Below, one piece after another: positions 8,670-45,458 of a stretch of 45,526 bases of DNA (position 1 is its first letter; every line of letters starts with the position of its first letter). This DNA comes from a virus. Location of the stretch: the IMG/VR virus record IMGVR_UViG_3300047472_000308, positions 1-45,526 of that record; one strand, 5' to 3'. The position numbers and the translations under genes are program-made. The notes under the pieces are model-generated. The model was not told where the DNA came from. It searched no databases and worked only from the letters and a program-made list of their open reading frames with translations.

Positions 8670-9371
8670 ATGAAATTCCATCTCTACGGCCTCTGCGGCT
8701 ACGCCGGAACCGGCAAGGACACCGTCGCGGATCTTCTCTGCACGCATCTCGGCTTCAGGAAGTTCGCGTTCGCGGACACGCTGCGCGCCGAGGTCGCAGA
8801 GGCCTTCGGCGTCGACCGCATCTACTTCACCAGCCAGCACACGAAGAACGTGCCGATGGCGGCCCTGATGATGGAGCGCGCGCCGCATGGCTTCGTCGGC
8901 GCCGTCGCGCTCACCGTCGACAGCAGCGGCCGCAACGCGCGGGGCCAGCTCAGCGAGGCCTGGATGACCGAGCCGCGCACGCCGCGCCAGATCATGCAAT
9001 GGTGGGGCACCGAGTACCGCCGCCGGCAGTCCTCGCTCTACTGGGTAAACGCCCTCGCGGCGCGGATCTTCGAGCACCGCCGCGCCGGCAACGACCGCAT
9101 CGTCATCACCGACTGCCGCTTCGCCAACGAAGTTGACCTGGTGCGTGCCTATGGCGGCCAGCTCTGGCAAGTCACACGCCCAGGCGTCGACGGCGGCAGC
9201 ACGCCTGAGCGTGGCCACGTCAGCGCCACGGACGGCACCGAGTTCGAGCCGGACGCGGTCATCGCGAACCTGCACGACATCAGGCACCTGCAGCAGCTCG
9301 TGCTCACCGAATTCCTCGCCCGCGAGACCGGCATCAGCACGGTGAAGGTCTCGCTCCCGGCCGAGGCCTGA
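8670..9371 (+). CDS. Deoxynucleoside monophosphate kinase
   Basis: 233 aa. P-loop GYAGTGKDT at residues ~10-18 with a following Asp-Thr-Val helix, then FRKFAFADTLR, the typical second motif of dNMP kinases of phages (T4 gene 1/T5 dnk-like), and VITDCRFANEV near residue 148. These enzymes phosphorylate dNMPs to dNDPs for phage DNA synthesis. An insertion of about 40 residues follows the first helix (VDRIYFTSQHTKNVPM onward). It is in the early operon, as expected for a nucleotide-supply enzyme. Confidence 0.85.
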   Translation: MKFHLYGLCGYAGTGKDTVADLLCTHLGFRKFAFADTLRAEVAEAFGVDRIYFTSQHTKNVPMAALMMERAPHGFVGAVALTVDSSGRNARGQLSEAWMTEPRTPRQIMQWWGTEYRRRQSSLYWVNALAARIFEHRRAGNDRIVITDCRFANEVDLVRAYGGQLWQVTRPGVDGGSTPERGHVSATDGTEFEPDAVIANLHDIRHLQQLVLTEFLARETGISTVKVSLPAEA

Positions 9372-9442: not shown

Positions 9443-10084
9443 ATGTTCAAGGCATCTGCCGTCTTCGCCGCCGCCCTGCTGCTGGCCGCCGCGGCCACGG
9501 CGACGACGAAACCGCCCGCGCAACCGTCGGGCATCACCAACGCCAACAACGCAACCGCGGCGGCGGCGGCGTCCGCACGGGGCGGCAGCGCCTGGTCAGC
9601 GGGGGGCAGTGGTGGCGCCGGCGGAGCGGGCGGCCTGGGCGGTGCCGGCGGCACAGTGGGCAGCGTGTTCGCCGGCGGCGTCGACCTGGCCGGCGCCCGG
9701 ATCGGCTCCGACATCGCCGTGGAGCGCAGCACGCCGCCGCTGTATGCGCCGCAACCCACGGCAGGCGGGTTCGCGAGCTGCCCGAAACCCGGCATCACCG
9801 CAGGGGGGAGCGGGCCCGGCGGCGGCGGCATCCTGAGCTTCACCTTCGGGACCGACGCGACGTGCCGACTCGGGCAGGCGCTCGACCTGATGGCGCGCGA
9901 TCGGGCGAACTTCACAGCCGAGGACCGGAAGCAGGTCGCCTGCAAGCAGGAGGACATCGCCGAGACGCCCACGTGCAAGGCGCTGGCCAGGAAGCTGGCG
10001 GAGTCCGAACGGGCGAGCGCTGCGCTGGAAGACCGGCCCGCGCCGACGGCGCGTCAGCCCATGCCCTGGCAGGCCGGTGGCTGA
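9443..10084 (+). CDS. Exported Gly/Ala-rich protein, hypothetical
   Basis: 213 aa from ATG 9443 with GGAAGGA upstream (an in-frame TTG at 9428 is weaker). A clear signal peptide (MFKASAVFAAALLLAAAAT) is followed by a low-complexity Gly/Ala/Ser region (~35-80, repeats of GGAGG), then a soluble part with paired Cys (ATCRLGQALDLM, KQVACKQEDIAETPTCKAL). Exported early-gene products are uncommon in siphoviruses; a periplasmic or surface role is likely. The Cys-containing C-terminal domain resembles small phage proteins of unknown function. Confidence 0.72.
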   Translation: MFKASAVFAAALLLAAAATATTKPPAQPSGITNANNATAAAAASARGGSAWSAGGSGGAGGAGGLGGAGGTVGSVFAGGVDLAGARIGSDIAVERSTPPLYAPQPTAGGFASCPKPGITAGGSGPGGGGILSFTFGTDATCRLGQALDLMARDRANFTAEDRKQVACKQEDIAETPTCKALARKLAESERASAALEDRPAPTARQPMPWQAGG

Positions 10085-10097
10085 GGGGCAGCACGCC

Positions 10098-12059
10098 ATG
10101 GCAAGCCCCACCCACAAGAAGTGCCACGGCGTGCTGCTGCCCGCCGATGCCTTCGCCGCCAATGCCAAGCGCTCCGATGGCTTGCAGGCCTACTGCCGCG
10201 ACTGCATGAAGAAGAAGCGTGCGGACTGGAACGAGCGCAATCTCGACAAGATCGAGGCGTACAACGCATCGAGGCGCAAAGGAACGACAGCGCCCGCGCC
10301 GGACGCGCCAAACATGCCTGCGCCGGCGCCCGCCCTTCCGTCGTTCGAGGAGGCCCCCGCGACCTACCTCAAGCTGTCCCGCTCGGCCATAGTCCCGAGC
10401 CGCAGCAATCCGCGCACCCACTTCGATCTCGACTTCATCAAGGATCTGGCCGCCAGCATCAAGGCGCACGGCCTCGCGCAGCCGATTCTTGTGCGCCCGC
10501 TGCCCGGGTCGCGCCTCGAAGAGACCTACATGGACCGGCGTGCGGACGCACCGCGGCCCACGCATGAGATCGTGTGCGGTGAGCAGCGCTGGCGCGCGTG
10601 CGAGATCGCAGGCATTCGCGATGTGGACGTGCTCGTGCGGAATCTCACCGACGGGCAGGTCCGCCTGATCCAGCTCGTCGAGAACCTGAAGCGCCGCGAT
10701 CTCCATCCGATGGAGGAGGCTGAGGGCTACGAACGCCTGCGCGAGGAAGGCATGTCGGCGGAGGACATCGCCGAGCAGATCGGCAAGGGCCGCTCCTACG
10801 TCTACAAGACGCTGAAGCTGGTGGAACTCGAGCCCGAGGCGCGCGAGGCCTTCTACGACGGCAAGCTGACCAGGTCGACGGCCGAGCTGGTCGCCATGCG
10901 TCCTCCGAACCTGCAGGTCACGCTGCTCAAGGAACTCATCGCCGCCGATTTCCACGGCGAGCCCATGAGCTTCCGGCGTGCGAAGGCACACGTCGAGAGC
11001 CACTACATGCTGCGGCTCGGCAGCGCGGCGTTCAAGATCACCGATGCGACCCTGCTGCCGGAGGCGGGGAGTTGCCGCACGTGCCCGAAGCGCTCCGGCG
11101 CGAATCCGCAGCTCTTCGACGACGTGTCGCACGCGGACACGTGCACCGACCCCACATGCTTCGCGAAAAAGAAGGATGCGCACTACGACCGCATCAAGGC
11201 CGCCGCCGAGCAGAAGGGCCAGACGCTGATCGTCGGCCGCGAGGCGAAGGAGATCATGCCGCATAGCGGCATGCTGCGCGGCTACCGACGCGTCGACGAG
11301 CATGCCGACATCGGCGGCGAGATGAAGACGCTGCGCAAGGTCCTGGGCGAGGACATGCCCACGCCAATGCTGCTGGAGGATCCCCAGTCGAAGGAACTCA
11401 TCGAGGTGCTGCCGACGACGCTCGTGGGCAAGCTGCTGAAGGAACAGGGCATCACGAAGCCCGCGCCCGACACCAACGATGCGGCCGAAAAGCGGAGGCT
11501 GGCCGAGAAGTTCGAGAAGACATGGCGGCTGCGCGCGATCGAGAAGCTGGATGCAGCCTATGGCGGAGACGGCTTCGGCGCTCCCGTGCAGCGCTGCATC
11601 GCGCTCGATCTCCTGGAGGGTCTGACCGCTGACGAGCGCAAGCACACGTGCAAGCTGCTGGAGCTGGGCGACATCGCCACCCGTGAGGCCATCGAGGCGC
11701 ACATCGCCGAGTGCCCCGAGGACGAGATCGAGCGCGTGGTGTTCCTGCTGCTGGCCCAGCACGACATGCGCGAGCTGATCTCGTACAGCACCGGCAAGGC
11801 CACGCCGGCACCGCGGCTCGAAGCCATCGCGGGGGATCTCGGCGTCGACCTCGACGACGTGCGCGCCGCCGTCAAGAAGGAGTTCAGGGCCGCGGCGAGC
11901 GAGAAGGTCGTTGCCGCAGCCGCGAAGGCCGTGCGCGAGCAAGGCGCCGGCGTCACACCCAAGCCGGCCCGCAAGCCGAAGACCACCAAGGAAGAGGCCT
12001 CCGCGGCGATCGCCACCGCGCTGCAGGCCGCCGAACGTCAAGGAGCCACCCATGGATGA
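10098..12059 (+). CDS. ParB/Spo0J-like nuclease-domain protein with Cys clusters
   Basis: 653 aa from ATG 10098 (GAGGGG about 10 nt upstream). Order: a degenerate zinc-finger-like start (residues ~8-45, CHGVLLPADAF then YCRDC, so one Cys pair is reduced to a single Cys); a ParB N-terminal domain (~90-215) with box I EIVCGEQRWRAC and box II ENLKRRDLHPMEEAEG; a ParB HTH (RSYVYKTLKLVELEPEAREAF); a second Cys cluster (CRTCPKRSG, DTCTDPTCFAKKK); and a long helical C-terminus with a basic Ala-rich tail. ParB-fold proteins bind DNA and CTP or cut DNA. With no parA here, a role in DNA metabolism or regulation is more likely than partition. Confidence 0.85.
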   Translation: MASPTHKKCHGVLLPADAFAANAKRSDGLQAYCRDCMKKKRADWNERNLDKIEAYNASRRKGTTAPAPDAPNMPAPAPALPSFEEAPATYLKLSRSAIVPSRSNPRTHFDLDFIKDLAASIKAHGLAQPILVRPLPGSRLEETYMDRRADAPRPTHEIVCGEQRWRACEIAGIRDVDVLVRNLTDGQVRLIQLVENLKRRDLHPMEEAEGYERLREEGMSAEDIAEQIGKGRSYVYKTLKLVELEPEAREAFYDGKLTRSTAELVAMRPPNLQVTLLKELIAADFHGEPMSFRRAKAHVESHYMLRLGSAAFKITDATLLPEAGSCRTCPKRSGANPQLFDDVSHADTCTDPTCFAKKKDAHYDRIKAAAEQKGQTLIVGREAKEIMPHSGMLRGYRRVDEHADIGGEMKTLRKVLGEDMPTPMLLEDPQSKELIEVLPTTLVGKLLKEQGITKPAPDTNDAAEKRRLAEKFEKTWRLRAIEKLDAAYGGDGFGAPVQRCIALDLLEGLTADERKHTCKLLELGDIATREAIEAHIAECPEDEIERVVFLLLAQHDMRELISYSTGKATPAPRLEAIAGDLGVDLDDVRAAVKKEFRAAASEKVVAAAAKAVREQGAGVTPKPARKPKTTKEEASAAIATALQAAERQGATHG

Positions 12060-16495: not shown

Positions 16496-16878
16496 AGCGG
16501 GGTCTGACGCACGCCGAGGCGATTGAGTACGTCGGCGTCAAGCGCCGCACATTCGACGACGTGTGGCGGCCCAAGCTGGCGCCGATGCGCCAGGGCAGTT
16601 GCCTGATCTTCGACCGCCTCGACCTTGATCGGGTGTTCGACGAATTCAAGGCCGCGGCGGCCACGCCGGCGATGAACGATGACGCCGGCGCCACCCGGCC
16701 CCACAATGGCGCCCGGAACGGACGGCCCATTCAAGAAAGAGGAGAAAGTAAATGGGCCAAACAACTCGGGGTATCTACCCCGGTGAGAACGGAACCTGGC
16801 AGGTCGACAAGTGGTGGCGCGGCGATCGATTTCGCCAGCGTGGCTTCGGCAGTTTTGAAGAGGCGGAACGCTGGCTGA
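16492..16878 (+). CDS. Excisionase-like HTH protein
   Basis: 128 aa, ATGA overlap with the ASCH-like gene. Residues ~3-55 fit a winged-helix/AlpA-type fold (LTHAEAIEYVGVKRRTFDDVW, GSCLIFDRLDLDRVFDEF). The tail (PIQERGESKWAK, VRTEPGRSTSGGAAIDFAS, LKRRNAG) recurs in proteins placed directly before integrases of temperate phages. It overlaps the integrase gene by 127 nt in another frame, tying excisionase and integrase levels together. Role as directionality factor inferred from fold and place. Confidence 0.75.
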   Translation: MKRGLTHAEAIEYVGVKRRTFDDVWRPKLAPMRQGSCLIFDRLDLDRVFDEFKAAAATPAMNDDAGATRPHNGARNGRPIQERGESKWAKQLGVSTPVRTEPGRSTSGGAAIDFASVASAVLKRRNAG

Positions 16879-17933
16879 TCGATCGGCTGGCGGCCAGGCG
16901 CGAAATCGTGGTGCATGGCGCGCGCGAGATCCGCAGCTTCGAGGCCGCCGCAGCGCACTACGTGACGCTCAACCAGGACAAGACTTCAATCGAGACGGAG
17001 ATCCACCTTCTGAAGAGCGTCATGCCGAGCATCGGATCGTTGGAGCTACATCAGGTCCACGACGCCACCCTGGCGCCGTATGTGGCTGCGCGCCTGGCCG
17101 TGGGACGATCGCACAAGACGGTCAACCTAGCGCTGGGCGTCGTCCGCCGAATCCTCAACTTGTCGGCCACAAGCTGGCGGGACGAGGCCGGGCGTACATG
17201 GCTTCAGCAGGCGCCGAAGATCACGATGCTGCCGCTGGTCGGGTTCCAACGCGAACCTCGCCCCATCACCTGGGGTGAGCAGCGCAAGCTGCTGCCGGCG
17301 CTGCCAGACCACCTGGCTCGCATGTCGTTGTTCACCCTGAACACCGGTGTACGCGACGACGTGGTCTGCAACCTCCGGTGGGCCTGGGAGATCAAGGTGC
17401 CCGAGCTGGGCATCTCGGTGTTCGAGGTGCCGAGGCAGCATGTGAAGGGCAAGCGCCAGGCGCGGGTGCTGGTGTGCAACAGCGTCGCCCAGTCGATCAT
17501 TGAGTCCGCACGTGGCCAGCACGCAGAGTTCGTCTTTGTATGGCGCCGCGAGCGGGTGAAGAACGTTGACCAGGCGCCGGCGATGCCGTACCGGCCGATA
17601 GCGTTGATGAGCAACAACGGCTGGATGCGTGGCCGGGCGAAGGCCGGGTTGGCCGACCTACACGTCCACGACCTGCGCCACACAGTGGGCATGCGCCTGC
17701 GGGAAGCGGGTGTTTCCGAGGCCACGCGGGCGGACATCCTGTGGCACTCGACCGGGTCGATGACCAACCACTACAGCGTGGCCCAGATCGCCGAGCTGCA
17801 TGCGGCGCTGGAGGCGATCAAGGCCGACTCGGGGCGGTGGAACAAGAGCCTGGCGACGCTCCGCCGCGAACAGGAAGAGGGACGGCAGGACGTGAGTCCC
17901 CCAGAAGTCCCCCGACAAAAGAAAACAGCCTAG
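16752..17933 (+). CDS. int: Tyrosine-family integrase
   Basis: 393 aa, complete. The catalytic set of tyrosine recombinases is visible: R201 in NTGVRDDVV, K in HVKGKRQ (~232-234), H306/R309 in HDLRH, H332 in LWHSTG, nucleophile Y341 in NHYSVA. The N-terminal ~60 residues (GIYPGENGTWQVDKWW onward) form an arm-binding domain, then a core-binding domain. The gene stops 39 bp before the tRNA-Arg 3' half used as attachment core. The start ATG 16752 has GAGG upstream and overlaps the excisionase-like gene. The protein joins phage attP to the host tRNA gene and reverses this with the excisionase. Confidence 0.95.
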   Translation: MGQTTRGIYPGENGTWQVDKWWRGDRFRQRGFGSFEEAERWLIDRLAARREIVVHGAREIRSFEAAAAHYVTLNQDKTSIETEIHLLKSVMPSIGSLELHQVHDATLAPYVAARLAVGRSHKTVNLALGVVRRILNLSATSWRDEAGRTWLQQAPKITMLPLVGFQREPRPITWGEQRKLLPALPDHLARMSLFTLNTGVRDDVVCNLRWAWEIKVPELGISVFEVPRQHVKGKRQARVLVCNSVAQSIIESARGQHAEFVFVWRRERVKNVDQAPAMPYRPIALMSNNGWMRGRAKAGLADLHVHDLRHTVGMRLREAGVSEATRADILWHSTGSMTNHYSVAQIAELHAALEAIKADSGRWNKSLATLRREQEEGRQDVSPPEVPRQKKTA

Positions 17934-39160: not shown

Positions 39161-39646
39161 TCAGGACTTCTTCATGACCTTGGCCTGGCCGGCAGCGGTC
39201 GCGCGCTCGTAGGCGACGTAGGCGCCCAGGCTCGAGAACTCGGCGTGCAGCTCGGCGGACGCTTCCCATTCAGCCTTGCAGCGCTCTTCGAGCGGCAGCT
39301 TGGCGCGCTCAGCGGCGGCTGCCGCAGCCTGCGCCGCGGCATCCGGCTTGACGGTTGCGCCAGGCGCGAGCGCCACGACGCCCGGCGCATCGCTGCCCAG
39401 TGCCGCAGCCTGCGTCTGGCGCGTCTTCTTCTCGGCGGCGAGGACCTGCAGTGCCGCGTCGCCGCCGCTGGTCTTGCCGTCGAACTTGAGCGAGTCGATG
39501 AGAGCCTCGTGGCCGGGGATCAGCGCTCCCTCCACTGCCTTGATTCGTGCACGCTCCTCGGAGGCGCCCGTGGTGCGGCCCTCGTCGAGCAGTGCCTGGA
39601 CAAGCTCGGGCGCCTCGGCCGCGAGCTTTTCGCGAGTGATCGTCAT
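39161..39646 (-). CDS. Nested scaffold protein (Nu3-like), internal start
   Basis: 161 aa in the same frame as the protease gene, starting at ATG 39646. AGGAG lies 8 nt before this ATG, a far better ribosome binding site than the full-length gene has. The product (MTITREKLAAEAPELVQALL onward) is helical and highly charged. In lambda the scaffold Nu3 arises the same way from gene C. Having more scaffold than protease in the procapsid would follow. Confidence 0.75.
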   Translation of the reverse strand: MTITREKLAAEAPELVQALLDEGRTTGASEERARIKAVEGALIPGHEALIDSLKFDGKTSGGDAALQVLAAEKKTRQTQAAALGSDAPGVVALAPGATVKPDAAAQAAAAAAERAKLPLEERCKAEWEASAELHAEFSSLGAYVAYERATAAGQAKVMKKS

Positions 39647-40534
39647 GGATGTGACTCCTGGGGTTGGTAGGTGAACGGTGCGGCCCGACGCAGCACCGGC
39701 GCGGTCGCGATTGAGTTGCTCGATCAGCGCGTCGAGGGTGGAGACACCGTCCACCAGCCCGGCCGCGATGGCCTGCTTTCCGATGAAGACGCGGCCCTCG
39801 GCCATGTCCTGCAAGACCTTCTCTTCGCTGACGCCGCGGTTCGCAGCAACGTTTGCCACGAACAGCGAGTACATGTAGTCGACCTGCTCCTGCATGGTCT
39901 GGCGTCCCGACTCGCTGAGCGGTCCGTACTGGCTGGCGATGCGTTTGAACTTGCCTGCGAAGATCTCGGTTGTCTTCACGCCGCGTTGCTCCTCGGCCTT
40001 CGACACGTCGACATGCGTCGCGACGACACCGATTGAGCCGACACCAGTGGTGTCGTCTTCGATGTAGATCTGCTGGCCAGCGGACCCGACCCAGTACGCC
40101 GCGCTCAACATCATTCCACCGCCCAGCGTGGCGACCGGCTTCGTGTCGCGCGCGCTGCGGATCACGTTCGCAAGCGTCTGCGTGCCGTCGACGGTCCCAC
40201 CCGGGCTGTCGATCGCCATGACGATGCTGTGCACTGACGGATCGGCGAGCGCAGCTCGCACGTCGCGCGCGATGAGCTCGGTGGACGCGCCGCCGGAGAT
40301 CTGCATGAAGAGGTTCGCGCGCTTCGCGATGACCCCTTCAACGGGGATCACCGCCACGCCGTCGACTATGTCGAAGGCCTTCGGTTCGTTCGCGAGCGGG
40401 CGCCCCAGCCGCGCCTCGACTGCGCCGATATCGATCTTCTCGCCGCGCATGTGCGTCGCGTAGATCGCCTGGATCTCAAGCAACTTCGAAGGCTCGATGG
40501 CCCAGGGAGCGGTGAGAACGTCGAGGAGTTTCAT
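39161..40534 (-). CDS. S49 head maturation protease fused to scaffold region (gpC-like)
   Basis: 457 aa. The protease part (~1-290) is SppA/S49-type: VAVIPVEGVIAKRANLF, SIVMAIDSPGGTVDGTQTLA, then GGMMLSAAYWVGSAGQQIYI with the Ser nucleophile candidate in MLSAAYW, and DTTGVGSIGVV. The C-terminal ~160 residues are charged and helical, as in scaffolds, and end in a small basic tail (AAGQAKVMKKS). An internal start (39646) should release the scaffold separately, as Nu3 within C of lambda. No Shine-Dalgarno is seen before ATG 40534; a 24-bp inverted-repeat site lies 47 bp upstream. Confidence 0.9.
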   Translation of the reverse strand: MKLLDVLTAPWAIEPSKLLEIQAIYATHMRGEKIDIGAVEARLGRPLANEPKAFDIVDGVAVIPVEGVIAKRANLFMQISGGASTELIARDVRAALADPSVHSIVMAIDSPGGTVDGTQTLANVIRSARDTKPVATLGGGMMLSAAYWVGSAGQQIYIEDDTTGVGSIGVVATHVDVSKAEEQRGVKTTEIFAGKFKRIASQYGPLSESGRQTMQEQVDYMYSLFVANVAANRGVSEEKVLQDMAEGRVFIGKQAIAAGLVDGVSTLDALIEQLNRDRAGAASGRTVHLPTPGVTSMTITREKLAAEAPELVQALLDEGRTTGASEERARIKAVEGALIPGHEALIDSLKFDGKTSGGDAALQVLAAEKKTRQTQAAALGSDAPGVVALAPGATVKPDAAAQAAAAAAERAKLPLEERCKAEWEASAELHAEFSSLGAYVAYERATAAGQAKVMKKS

Positions 40535-40580
40535 TGAGGCACTGTGTGGATCAGTGCCGGGAATGTAGAAAACTTACGCT

Positions 40581-40604
40581 GTCTCAAATAGGGCAAATTG
40601 AGAC
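40581..40604 (-). repeat. 24-bp inverted-repeat site, copy 2, before the protease gene
   Basis: On the plus strand GTCTCAA, a 10-bp centre ATAGGGCAAA, then TTGAGAC. All 24 bases equal those at 42516-42539. It starts within the portal stop codon and ends 47 bp before the protease ATG on the minus strand. Thirteen bases after it, on the minus strand, comes TACATT, a -10-like hexamer. Likely an activator-dependent promoter site. Confidence 0.7.
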
Positions 40605-42250
40605 TACTCGACCACGGCGGCCTTCTTCGTGACGGTTTCGTCGTCGGACTCCGGTTCTGCCGGCGCAGCCGCAGCGGCCGGCGCGGCGGGCATTGCAGTC
40701 CCGTCTCGCTTCTGCGCCTCGACCTCGCGCACGCGCTGCCGGTGCTTGACCTCCCATGGAATGCCGTCGTGCAGGATGCTCTCTGCGTCGAGCGTGCTGA
40801 TTTCCATATCGACGCGATCGCGCGCTGCTTTCACTTCCTTGCCCGGATCAATGGAGCCCGGACCGTCACCGGTCCAGACAGAGCCGCACCAGGCCGCCCG
40901 CACAAGGTCATCCGCGAAGAAGCCCGGAGCCGAGATGCGGCCCTCCGCGACCTCGTCAGCAAGCCACAGCTCCACCACAGGCTGGCAGAGGTTGGTGATG
41001 GTGTGCTCGCGGCGCGCACGAAAGAACTTCCACGCCATGAGCAACGCGCCGCGTGCTGCGGTGTAGCTGCTCTGGAAGTGCATCACGAGCACCTCGTAGG
41101 GCAGTTCGAGCGCCACCCCGATCTGGCGCAGGATCGCGAGCACGAACGGATCGAACTGGGGATTCGGCCGCCCCGGCGTGTGCGTCTGGATCTCCTCGCC
41201 GGGGAGCAGGTTGACCGCCTTGCTCGTGCCGAGTTCGCCGTTGTTGAGCGCGCCGTCCCATTCCGTCGCCTGCTTCACGATGCTCTCCTGCGCATCGTCG
41301 TCGAAGAGCTTGTCGAAGGCTTCGGCGTCCATCTTCACAAACACGCTGAAGATGGCCGAGTCCACAGCCGCTTTCAGTTCGGCGTCGGTGTACCTGCTGA
41401 GCTGCTTGAGCGGCTCCAGGATAGGTGCGATCCAGGGAACTCCTCGTACCTGGCCGGGGCGCAGCGTCTTGAAGCTGTGGAGAACGTTCCGGCGGCCCGT
41501 CTTCTCGCCGCGCATGGCCACGCGCTGCCAGGTATTGCCGGCACTCCGAAAGTCACCGGGATGCTTCTTCGCGATATGCACTGCCACCGCTTCATTCGTC
41601 TCTGGCGCCAGTTCGATGCCGTCGATCAACGTCTCGGTGTCCGCCTTGTAGTCGGGGTTGCAGACCTGGTCGGCCTCGATCAGTTGGAGTGCAAGACGGG
41701 CAGGTCGACCTGCGCGAGCGATGCGCGGCGTCACGACGAATGAATCGCCGCTTTCCAGCTCGGTTCGGAAGCTCAGTTCCTGGATCTCGTAGAAGTTGAG
41801 GCGACGACCCACGTCGCAGTCCTTCGACTCGGCCCAGGCCTTGAAACGTCGAGCGGTGTCGGCGCTCCACGCCGTTGCCTCTTCTTCGGTCAGGCCAAGG
41901 GCGGCGGCATCGATCGCGGGCGTGTAGGTCAAGCCGGTGCCCACCACGTGACTCACCGTGGTGTTCATCGCACCGACGGCGATAGGCGCGTTCCGGAACT
42001 GGTCCCTGCTGCGGGCCCGCAGCATGGGTAGATCGCCAATGATGTCCGACGTGGGCGACCCTGCGCCGACGCGCCAGTTGGCCAAGCTCTTCTTGTCGAT
42101 CCTGGCACCGGTGTATCCGCCCGCCAGCGCGAGGTGCGCGCGGTGCACCATGCGCTGCTTCGCGACCGCCGGAGCAAAGTACGCAATCGCCTTGTCCAGC
42201 AGGTTCTGCTGCACGAGCGGGTGGCGGCCGATTCGCTTTTCTTCAGCCAT
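40604..42250 (-). CDS. Portal protein (lambda gpB-like)
   Basis: 548 aa from ATG 42250 (TGATG overlap with the gpW-like gene). Lambda-type portal marks: ANWRVGAGSPTSDIIGDLPM, RARSRDQFRNAPIAVGAMNT, VVGTGLTYTP, LIEADQVCNPDYKAD, GRRNVLHSFKTLRPGQVRGV and SSYTAARGALLMAWKFFRARR. A Pro/Ala-rich end follows (MPAAPAAAAAPAEPESDDE). The ring of 12 subunits at one vertex forms the DNA gate for the terminase motor. Confidence 0.92.
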   Translation of the reverse strand: MAEEKRIGRHPLVQQNLLDKAIAYFAPAVAKQRMVHRAHLALAGGYTGARIDKKSLANWRVGAGSPTSDIIGDLPMLRARSRDQFRNAPIAVGAMNTTVSHVVGTGLTYTPAIDAAALGLTEEEATAWSADTARRFKAWAESKDCDVGRRLNFYEIQELSFRTELESGDSFVVTPRIARAGRPARLALQLIEADQVCNPDYKADTETLIDGIELAPETNEAVAVHIAKKHPGDFRSAGNTWQRVAMRGEKTGRRNVLHSFKTLRPGQVRGVPWIAPILEPLKQLSRYTDAELKAAVDSAIFSVFVKMDAEAFDKLFDDDAQESIVKQATEWDGALNNGELGTSKAVNLLPGEEIQTHTPGRPNPQFDPFVLAILRQIGVALELPYEVLVMHFQSSYTAARGALLMAWKFFRARREHTITNLCQPVVELWLADEVAEGRISAPGFFADDLVRAAWCGSVWTGDGPGSIDPGKEVKAARDRVDMEISTLDAESILHDGIPWEVKHRQRVREVEAQKRDGTAMPAAPAAAAAPAEPESDDETVTKKAAVVE

Positions 42251-42474
42251 CACCGGCTCACGATCGTGCGTGCCCGGCCGCGCCCCGCTGCCTGAGCGTT
42301 GGCCGTCGTGAGACGCTGGGACCACAGCTCGATGCCCTGCTGAATGTCGCCCAGGTTGGCGCGAGTCAATTTTCTTCCGGCGATTTCGTACGACTGGTTC
42401 AGCAGAACAGCGGCCTCGGCCGCGATGTAGAGGTCGAGCTGCTGCTGGGCGAGGGCGGGACTGAAGGCGGGCAT
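42250..42474 (-). CDS. gpW-like head-tail connector (DUF6148-like)
   Basis: 74 aa from ATG 42474, GGAG 5 nt upstream. LYIAAEAAVLLNQSYEIAGR followed by KLTRANLGDIQQGIELWSQR and a basic tail is the typical small protein encoded just ahead of lambda-type portals, comparable to gpW. It probably plugs the portal ring from below. Its start is 42 bp after a 24-bp inverted-repeat site. Confidence 0.78.
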   Translation of the reverse strand: MPAFSPALAQQQLDLYIAAEAAVLLNQSYEIAGRKLTRANLGDIQQGIELWSQRLTTANAQAAGRGRARTIVSR

Positions 42475-42515
42475 GGATGCTCCATTGGCGATGCGCAGTC
42501 TATGAATGAAAGGTC

Positions 42516-42539
42516 GTCTCAAATAGGGCAAATTGAGAC
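42516..42539 (-). repeat. 24-bp inverted-repeat site, copy 1, after the Mor-like gene
   Basis: Identical in all 24 bases to 40581-40604. Here the symmetry is longer: 10-bp perfect arms GTCGTCTCAA and TTGAGACGAC around a 10-bp centre (42513-42542). It begins in the stop codon of the Mor-like gene. On the minus strand TAGACT, a -10-like hexamer, follows 13 bases later, the same distance as in copy 2. Confidence 0.72.
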
Positions 42540-42541
42540 GA

Positions 42542-42859
42542 CTACGGAGGTGACCGCCGCTTCATGTGGCGGTAGAGGGTCGCGCGGCTGACGCCATACC
42601 GTTGCTGCAGCTCGTCGTCCCGAAGGTTGCTCACTGCGTCGATCACGAACTGCTTGCGCTCGTCCGAGCTGAGACGCCGCTGCTTGCCCTTGGCCACAAA
42701 CCACCGTCGGCCGCCGAACTGCTCGCGAACATCGGTCTCGACACGTTTCACCAGATCCGGCGCCAGGTTCGGCACCACGAGGGCGACCATGCGAAGGATC
42801 TCGCGCACGATATCGGCGTCGTCGGCGCCCGTGCTGCTCTGCTCCGTAGGTGCGGTCAC
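42542..42859 (-). CDS. Mor-like transcription activator
   Basis: 105 aa from GTG 42859 (GAGG 6 nt upstream), overlapping the TerL stop (GTGA). The second half is a Mor/C-type region: FGGRRWFVAKGKQRRLSSDE, then an HTH RDDELQQRYGVSRATLYRHM. Mu Mor and C activate middle and late promoters that have a poor -35. A regulator gene inside a head module, directly followed by an inverted-repeat site that recurs before the protease gene, fits a local activator of head-gene promoters. The site link is inference. Confidence 0.78.
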   Translation of the reverse strand: MTAPTEQSSTGADDADIVREILRMVALVVPNLAPDLVKRVETDVREQFGGRRWFVAKGKQRRLSSDERKQFVIDAVSNLRDDELQQRYGVSRATLYRHMKRRSPP

Positions 42860-44883
42860 TGGCCGCCTCGCTTCGTGCCGGTCAGCGAAATGCGCCCGCC
42901 TGGACCGCGCTGCTTCACCACGATCGATTCAGCAAGCGGGACGGCGGGCGCGGCGACTGCACCTGGCGACGGTTCCTGGAAGAGATCAAGCTCGCGCGGC
43001 GCAATGCGCTGCTCGCGCCGAGCCCAGCTAGGCTCGCGGTACTTGTCGATGCCCAGGTAGCAGGCTGCCGCGTATGCGTAGACCATGCAGTCGCTCGCCT
43101 CTTCGCGTTTGCCCTGCGGGGTGATCCAGCGCATGAACGGCTTTCCCTGCACGACGACCGGCAACTTCCTCGCGGCGGTCATCTGCTCGAACTCGTCCGT
43201 GGTCTCGAACGCCTTCGGCACGTGCACGAAGCCGCCCGCGCCGGCGACCGTCAGGCGCATGCGGCCGTAGAGCAGATCCTTCGCGGTGTCGGTCCCAATG
43301 GGCCAGAGCTTGACGCCGCGCTCGATCTTCTGCCCATGCCAGTCGACATCCTGGAGCGTCGGCTTCCCGAGAATCGGCGCACCCGCCTTGCTCGCGCCCT
43401 TGATCGCCAGCACGTGCGAGCGAGAGTGATTCCGGCAGTAGGTATACGCGGCGTGCGTGTTGTGGCCGCCGGTGTCGACGCAGGTCGCCTCGATCAGCAC
43501 CTGGTTGCCGCTCGCGTGCATGATCGGCGTGCGACGGATCTCGGTCAGCCTGGTCCACGGCGAACCGGGGGCACCCTCATCGAGGTTCGGATCGCCGAAG
43601 ATCACGTGCACTTCGACCAGCCAGCTCTCCTCGCCGCGCCCGTAGGCCCAGATCCGCGCTTCGAGTCGATCGGGCTGCGTGTCCACCCCCATGGTGACCA
43701 TGAGGCCGCGCAGCGGGACCTTGCCGGTTTCGTACGGCTCTGCCCGCCGGCGCAGCGTCTCGCTGTCCGCCCCGGTGCCGTCCTCTTTCCATGTTTCCGC
43801 CAGGCTCGAATTCACGAACTCCTTCAGCGGCGCGCTGTTCCCTTTGCGCTTCTCCACTTGGGCGGTGTCCCACTTCTCGACGAGCGCCGCCCATGACCGC
43901 CAGCCGAGAGGGCTGTAGAGCTTGTTGAGCTGGAAACCGGCACGCCTGCCTCTGCCCGCCCCAGGCGCTGCAGGTATCCAGATCCCCTCGCGCAGCATGA
44001 ATTCCTTGTTGTGCTCCTCGATGGCCGCCCCGCACTTGATGCACACATAGACGGCCGTCTCCGGCCGCGCCGCGCCCTGCAGCGTCCGTAGCCATTTCAG
44101 GCCGTGCTCCGTTTCGGCTCCCCACACGAGCACCTGGCGCTCGCCACAGTGCGGGCACGGGACGTGGTAGCGCCGCTGGTCGCTGGCGAGGTACTCGGTC
44201 TCGATGGCGCTGGCACCGCGAACGGTCGGCGTGCTCGCGATCACGAGCTTGCGCCGACCGAAATTGCTCATACGCTCTTCGAGCAGCGCGAGCGGCGGAC
44301 CCTGGTTGTCGACGTCGGCAGGCCACTTGTCGACCTCGTCGGCGGCGGCGAAGCCGAGCGGCTTGGAGGCCAGCGAACTGGCGCTGTTCGCGCCGCCGAA
44401 GAACACCGCGAATCCACCCTTGATCGATCGGGCCTTCCAGGTGCTCGACTCGTCGCGGCTGCGCTGCACCGTCACCAGGCCGTCCATTGCCGGCGTCTGC
44501 TGCACCGTCGGCAGGAAGCGCAGGCCGCTGTGTTCCTGTGCGTCCTGCAGGGTCGGCTGCACCATCATCATGTCCTGCGGTTCCGTGTGGATCCGCTGCA
44601 TGATGGAGTTGTAGATGACCTCCGTCTTGCCGAGCTGCGTCGCGAACATCAGCACGATGCGCTCGTACGGCGAGAAAGAGCTCACGCAGGTCATCGGCTC
44701 GACCAGGTACGGCGTCCGCTCGTTGCGCCACTGGCCGCGCTCCGGGCCTTTCGCGATGCGGCGGAACTTCTGCGCCCACTGTGCTGTGTCGACGTGCGGC
44801 GGCGGCCTGAGGTAGCGATCCCTGCACCGATCGAGAATCTCGACGGCGCGGAGTTCGTCGCCCGGCAGGTCGCGAGCGCTCAT
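42856..44883 (-). CDS. Terminase large subunit (gpA family)
   Basis: 675 aa from ATG 44883 (ATGA overlap with the small subunit). ATPase: YERIVLMFATQLGKTEVIYN is the Walker A region, GFAAADEVDKW the Walker B. A Cys set (CPHCGE, CIKCGA) is inserted as a zinc ribbon, typical of lambda gpA. The nuclease half follows (VTMGVDTQPDRLEARIWAYG with a metal-binding Asp; CVDTGGHNTHAAYTYCR; REEASDCMVYAYAAACY). The motor cuts and pumps DNA into the head. gpA-type enzymes usually cut at cos. Confidence 0.93.
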   Translation of the reverse strand: MSARDLPGDELRAVEILDRCRDRYLRPPPHVDTAQWAQKFRRIAKGPERGQWRNERTPYLVEPMTCVSSFSPYERIVLMFATQLGKTEVIYNSIMQRIHTEPQDMMMVQPTLQDAQEHSGLRFLPTVQQTPAMDGLVTVQRSRDESSTWKARSIKGGFAVFFGGANSASSLASKPLGFAAADEVDKWPADVDNQGPPLALLEERMSNFGRRKLVIASTPTVRGASAIETEYLASDQRRYHVPCPHCGERQVLVWGAETEHGLKWLRTLQGAARPETAVYVCIKCGAAIEEHNKEFMLREGIWIPAAPGAGRGRRAGFQLNKLYSPLGWRSWAALVEKWDTAQVEKRKGNSAPLKEFVNSSLAETWKEDGTGADSETLRRRAEPYETGKVPLRGLMVTMGVDTQPDRLEARIWAYGRGEESWLVEVHVIFGDPNLDEGAPGSPWTRLTEIRRTPIMHASGNQVLIEATCVDTGGHNTHAAYTYCRNHSRSHVLAIKGASKAGAPILGKPTLQDVDWHGQKIERGVKLWPIGTDTAKDLLYGRMRLTVAGAGGFVHVPKAFETTDEFEQMTAARKLPVVVQGKPFMRWITPQGKREEASDCMVYAYAAACYLGIDKYREPSWARREQRIAPRELDLFQEPSPGAVAAPAVPLAESIVVKQRGPGGRISLTGTKRGGQ

Positions 44884-45458
44884 TGACCCGGCTCCAGCTT
44901 GCGCACCTCGGCGCTGGCCAGCGTCTCCAGCGCCTTCCGATGTTCCGCGTCGAGCATCTGCTCGATCTTGAACACGTCGCTCTCCGCTGCCAGCAACGGA
45001 GCCAGGCGGGCGCGCACCTGGAGGAGGTGCTCGCGCGCCGACGCGAGCATGGCCGACCACACGCCCTCGACCGCGGCGACGCTGATCAGGTCGCGTCGCT
45101 GCTCGGCCAGCCGCAGCTCGGCGAGTTCGGCATCCGCTGCTTCGCGTCGCCCGCGCCACATCGTGTAGTCGTCGGGCGGCGTCGGCTCCGCGCGAGGTGT
45201 CGTCGGCGCCGGAGGCTCGGACAGCAGGTCAGGGGTGTCCACACGTGTGGACGCTTCCACGGCCACCTCCGCCGGCGCAGGCTTCGAACCGATCCGGGCG
45301 CGGCTGTTCTGCGCCCACTGGATGTCCGCCACCGTCGGGTCGATCAGTCCGTCGATCAGGCTGATCCGCTTCGCCTTCACGGCCTTGTGCACCGCGACGG
45401 CCGAGCAGCCGCGATGCTTGGCGTATTCCGCCTGCGTGATCAACTTAACTTCGGCCAT
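44880..45458 (-). CDS. Terminase small subunit (Nu1-like)
   Basis: 192 aa from ATG 45458 (a TTG at 45482 is in frame). The N-terminus is a winged-helix DNA-binding part (ITQAEYAKHRGCSAVAVHKA, KAKRISLIDG), then a Pro-rich linker, then a helical C-terminal region for large-subunit contact (MWRGRREAADAELAELRLAE, LISVAAVEGVWSAMLASARE). Its start is 18 bp from the wrapped stop of the edge-spanning gene, so there is almost no intergenic room for a cos site. Confidence 0.88.
   Translation of the reverse strand: MAEVKLITQAEYAKHRGCSAVAVHKAVKAKRISLIDGLIDPTVADIQWAQNSRARIGSKPAPAEVAVEASTRVDTPDLLSEPPAPTTPRAEPTPPDDYTMWRGRREAADAELAELRLAEQRRDLISVAAVEGVWSAMLASAREHLLQVRARLAPLLAAESDVFKIEQMLDAEHRKALETLASAEVRKLEPGQ

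Follow-up and report, generated by a model that had tools for sequence, protein, structure and literature searches.

An uncultured phage with a lambda-type head operon likely encodes, among its head genes, a Mor/C-family activator that drives sigma70-type late promoters for two gene blocks, one for connector and portal and the other for protease, capsid and tail; based on comparative sequence data, we put the probability of this reading at roughly 90%. The window (the whole stretch of viral DNA analyzed, 45,526 nucleotides [nt]) contains the following features, all on the minus strand.

42856 to 45159, minus strand: terminase large subunit gene (GpA; PF05876 and PF20454), upstream of and outside both predicted activator-driven blocks
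42542 to 42859, minus strand: mor-like activator gene, 105 amino acids (aa), whose GTG start overlaps the terminase stop (GTGA)
42516 to 42539, minus strand: candidate activator site 1, GTCTCAATTTGCCCTATTTGAGAC, after the 105-aa Mor-like gene
42497 to 42502, minus strand: -10-like hexamer TAGACT of candidate promoter 1 (predicted +1 at 42490, assuming a standard -10)
42250 to 42474, minus strand: gpW-like head-tail adaptor gene (phrog_118, E = 1.9e-19), the first gene past promoter 1, with a GGAG-type ribosome site
40604 to 42250, minus strand: lambda-type portal gene (PF05136, E = 2.8e-93), the second gene of the promoter 1 block
40581 to 40604, minus strand: candidate activator site 2, the identical 24-mer GTCTCAATTTGCCCTATTTGAGAC, before the S49 protease gene
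40562 to 40567, minus strand: -10-like hexamer TACATT of candidate promoter 2 (predicted +1 at 40555, assuming a standard -10)
39161 to 40534, minus strand: S49 head maturation protease/scaffold gene (PF01343, E = 8.6e-36), the first gene past promoter 2, followed by capsid and tail genes

The minus-strand order of terminase large subunit, mor-like gene, gpW-like adaptor, lambda-family portal, and S49 protease preserves the A-W-B-C order of lambda-type head operons. Two start/stop pairs are coupled, terminase-mor (GTGA) and gpW-portal (TGATG), and both 24-bp sites fall at the two uncoupled gene junctions of the head block. The exact 24-mer occurs twice in the 45.5-kb record and nowhere else in it, with the copies 1935 nt apart; chance is not expected to give two identical 24-mers in 45 kb. 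The first-pass annotation, which had noticed this repeat, had also placed a -10-like hexamer exactly 13 nt past each site, and this spacing holds for both TAGACT and TACATT. Its description of the sites as starting at a stop codon is approximate, since site 1 begins 2 nt past the TAG of the mor-like gene and site 2 at the last base of the portal TAG. Likewise, while its expected 5' end near 42490 coincides with the first predicted +1, the one expected near 40560 is shifted to 40555. The inverted repeat at site 1 reaches 10-bp arms (GTCGTCTCAA...TTGAGACGAC). When 3 mismatches were allowed, the palindrome pattern was not significant by itself in a scan of the window, and the case for the site is thus built on its relatives rather than on the pattern alone.

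We assign the 105-aa protein to the Mor/C family, as a diverged member, with moderate confidence. It matched the Mor family PF08765 at E = 0.0068 (16.8 bits, below the Pfam cutoff of 24.9) and the late transcriptional activator family phrog_532 at E = 0.0038. Relatives scored above the PF08765 cutoff (27.4 bits for L131, 28.9 for L156, and 36.7 for L099), and all 11 of the 11 members of the first alignment (A1) matched both PF08765 and phrog_532. A search of PDB sequences with a 38-row profile returned Mu Mor first (1rr7, E = 0.015). The AlphaFold2 model (pLDDT 83) has helices at residues 17 to 28 and 34 to 48 and a helix-turn-helix (HTH) at residues 65 to 100, with no strand assigned by DSSP; its top Foldseek matches in the PDB, which were weak, were again to Mu Mor (9l0y, E = 0.09; 1rr7, E = 0.16). 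Three queries with the Mor-like protein found no match in 50,697 isolate records, and literature searches covering the sequence, Mor-like late promoters, and Mor cryo-electron microscopy found no description of this Mor-like system. The window does not classify with the Mu-like transposable phages: its head genes are of the lambda type, positions 16752 to 17933 match the phrog_1 integrase family, and no transposase was found among the window proteins searched. The non-structural half also contains a long open reading frame with a ParB-like partition family match (10077 to 12059) and, nearby, a dNMP kinase match (8670 to 9371).

When the viral collection was searched, 17 other viral contigs contained the exact 24-mer (18 stretches in all); every copy points the same way as the late genes, and almost all stand ahead of gpW or the protease. 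Across relatives, the sites lie between the mor-like gene and gpW or before the protease (MKLLDVLTAPWAIEP). The exact 24-mer did not occur in the genome_contigs collection (84,980 species), nor did it have a full-length match in the phage isolate and plasmid collections. An initial scan of viral sequences, run with the gap loosened to N8-12, had returned many unrelated palindromes, of which only those sharing the core mattered. The motif GTCTCA-N2-TTGCCCT-N22-TANNNT was found at 92 places in 2.03 Mb at a threshold of at least 14 of 16 scored positions, compared with none on the reversed sequence (the places were counted in fetched DNA, in which some loci overlap). The two sites within one phage differed at 1.2 positions on average and were identical in 18 of 30 cases, whereas pairs shuffled among phages differed at 6.9 positions, with none of 20,000 shuffles as low as the real pairs. 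L060 has an extra site in its portal-protease insert, ahead of a gene whose product matches a head scaffolding family. Seven loci (L060, L124, L130, L131, L133, L153, and L156) carry 2 to 5 kb of extra DNA between portal and protease, and there the site stays directly before the protease.

Some loci were gathered through the site and others through the Mor gene, and many relatives are fragments; the subset collected through the protease is the one free of this collection bias. Within this subset, loci with terminase plus gpW or portal that lack a mor-like gene (L192 to L196, L198 to L200, L202, L208, L209, L214, L215, and L217 to L219) had no sites, whereas L185, L186, and L188 had both a mor-like gene and paired sites. 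The mor-like gene was absent over the whole length of six large Mor-less records. Conversely, all nine site-bearing contigs with an examinable Mor position encode the gene (L185, L186, L188, L189, L053, L044, L033, L082, and L099); none of the nine comes from the Mor-collected set or from the contigs with the exact 24-mer, and contigs ending before the Mor position were left out (e.g., L041, L049, L125, L129, L183, L184, and L190). Sites in phages without the gene, which the first-pass annotation had proposed looking for as evidence against the pairing, were thus not encountered among the loci open to this check. The two isolates examined, KT1 and Cr-LKS3, had neither mor-like gene nor site, and Cr-LKS3, in which the A-W-B-C genes overlap, differs in this from the window.

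Across dozens of uncultured phages, the putative DNA-reading helix and the DNA site change in step. SRATLYR-type helices pair with GTCTCA half-sites, SKTTLWR or SNTTLWR with GTTTCA, SRRT with GTGCCA or GTGCAA, and DRAT or HRAT with GTCGCA or GTCGCC. Among 43 loci, an altered half-site went with an altered helix in 11 of 11 cases and a standard half-site with a standard helix in 31 of 32 (two-by-two table, 31/1/0/11; Fisher P = 2e-9, uncorrected for kinship). Since the terminase tree had long and unsure branches, a second tree was made from the Mor protein minus its helix; this tree implies ~7 changes and yields four supported independent pairs, for which a mean of 3.9 of 4 were concordant over 200 random pairings and none were opposed, numbers too small for formal significance in a sign test. 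A locus found later, L238, combines an L156-like body with SKTTLWR as its helix, and its half-site, ATTTCA/TGAAAC, is the one expected from the rule. Exceptions are L004, with GRATFYR and GTCTCA, and the distant member L230, with SRSTVYR and GTTTCA.

The hexamer was analyzed in 57 non-redundant sites picked on arm and core alone, ignoring the hexamer. Its consensus is NAnAnT, with A at position 2 in 54 of 57 sites, A at position 4 in 51, and T at position 6 in 55, and with low information between these positions; in the sigma70 -10 element, the strongest positions are 2 and 6. The distance from the core TTGCCC to the hexamer is a constant 23 nt for palindrome spacers of 10, 11, or 12 and also where the right arm is missing. 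No conserved -35 hexamer was found at the usual distance from the -10 in the 57 sites, and given the -10 placement, the palindrome extends from roughly -49 to -26 and takes in the -35 region. The covariation of helix and half-site, together with the fixed -10 spacing, argues for binding by the Mor-like protein and for promoter function. With the co-occurrence of gene and site, these data support the first-pass proposal of a promoter pair driven by a Mor-like activator, and we consider with high confidence that the 105-aa protein would work like Mor.

The locus L191 (5037 to 6017) encodes a Mor-like protein with a shortened HTH (GGQRVQVWK...SVRETMYRLLRR), and neither of its sites has arms. Both nevertheless retain CCCCGTTATTT, whose first base lies 28 nt from TATCCT at one site and from TAGAGT at the other. 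L176, which has arms and a full HTH, shares this core and spacing. This comparison suggests that the arms go with the HTH, and the core with a different region of the protein or with RNA polymerase. Core sequences vary by clade along with the GGxR strand, a trend that is confounded with kinship.

From these sequence comparisons, we infer binding, activation, sigma70 use, strand/core contact, timing, and relative output as parts of the following putative mechanism. The activator would be translated off the terminase transcript and would bind both 24-bp sites, with its HTH on the GTCTCA half-sites and the GGRR strand probably on the asymmetric TTGCCCTATTT core. The bound site would cover the -35 region and recruit host sigma70 RNA polymerase to the NAnAnT -10 located 13 nt downstream. 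Promoter 1 would then serve gpW and portal, and promoter 2 would serve protease/scaffold, capsid, and tail. Late expression would begin with terminase and activator and then rise at both breaks of the head operon, so that the promoters would raise scaffold, capsid, and tail above terminase.

Since the stems covary, we took seriously the alternative that the repeat acts as RNA, i.e., as a hairpin in the polycistronic late mRNA that would serve as processing site, translational operator, or terminator and whose conserved loop is perhaps bound by the small Mor-like protein. Compensated stem changes, the conserved loop, and the fixed orientation all fit a hairpin. However, seven sites without a right arm keep the left arm, core, and hexamer spacing (L111, L122, L154 twice, L166, L168, and L171), L191 keeps core and -10 spacing at both sites without any arms, and most sites have no adjacent U-tract. 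Moreover, the stem spacer varies while the core-to-hexamer distance is constant, which favors a DNA promoter. Given the missing right arms and the fixed hexamer spacing, we dropped the RNA reading, which we now regard as very improbable.

We consider it just as improbable that the protein is a repressor or timing brake on the internal promoters. A repressor, too, could act at the -35 region that the site overlaps, but the promoters have no conserved -35 hexamer and so would need a factor that replaces it, and the homologous Mu proteins are activators (PMC4390567). Lower still is the chance that the site is a mobile element or a recombination sequence dispersed among the head genes, with the Mor-like gene a mere neighbor. 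Although identical copies within one genome could arise in this way, the copies share one direction and, with few exceptions, the same junctions, their sequence tracks the recognition helix, the -10 is conserved at a fixed spacing, and Mor-less head modules lack the site.

Among known activators, those closest to the one proposed here belong to phage Mu. At the middle promoter Pm, a sigma70 promoter with a -10 but no -35, the dyad element bound by Mor takes the place of the -35 (PMC4390567). The protein is predicted to share with Mu Mor its small size, N-terminal dimer region, G-G strand, and C-terminal HTH, and a dyad in place of the -35 is predicted here as well. The Mu Mor site, however, is one 16-bp element with 5-bp repeats centered at -43.5, whereas the element described here is 24 bp long with 6- to 7-bp arms, a center near -37.5, an asymmetric conserved core, and half-sites 18 to 20 bp apart; it also occurs twice, inside a lambda-type head operon and beside the activator gene. 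The related Mu C protein serves the late promoters lys, I, P, and mom, overlapping or adjoining their -35 regions (PMC4461284). Here, too, one Mor-family protein is predicted to serve several late promoters, but those of C belong to a Mu-type genome, in contrast to promoters placed between A-mor, W-B, and C in one head block.

These results would carry Mor/C-type late control, known from Mu, over to lambda-type head operons in uncultured phages; relatives occur in Burkholderiales genomes (Rhodoferax sp. U2-2l and Massilia sp. Root418). They would also explain by what means these phages might adjust capsid and tail output separately from terminase. At least four half-site specificities are represented among dozens of natural activator-promoter pairs, which makes a Mor-family recognition code directly testable. 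A broader scenario, to which we give slightly less than even odds, joins the observations: a portable activator-promoter module would have entered lambda-type head operons and diversified into specificity families, with the HTH reading the arms and a separate part, probably the GGxR strand, reading the asymmetric core that fixes position and direction. The HTH and arms could be discarded while core-dependent promoters are kept, as in L191, and promoter 2 would give a nearly leaderless protease mRNA in one large clade.

The window itself showed no third site ahead of its lysis-like genes near 26 kb. The phages of L164 and L168 have third sites, each ahead of a small protein; an endolysin comes after it in L164's phage. 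At L254 (1501 to 2657) and L249 (near 1500, minus strand), the third promoter copy stands before a phrog_1024 protein, with endolysin next in L254. Given these third copies, the regulon may extend to lysis.

Counting +1 as 7 nt past the hexamer, gpW leaders are mostly 15 to 24 nt long, many with a GGAG ribosome site; in the window, the predicted leaders are 16 nt for gpW and 21 nt for the protease. In 17 loci (L004, L041, L060, L124, L125, L129, L130, L131, L133, L134, L145, L146, L150, L153, L156, L158, and L163), the protease ATG lies only 7 to 9 nt past the hexamer, for a predicted leader of 1 to 3 nt, and the protease mRNA of one large clade may thus be nearly leaderless. The gpW leader is longer in these phages, often with a ribosome site. 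The window (40534 to 40555) and L143 have a longer protease leader, with a small inverted repeat, CACTG-N7-CAGTG, just before the ATG.
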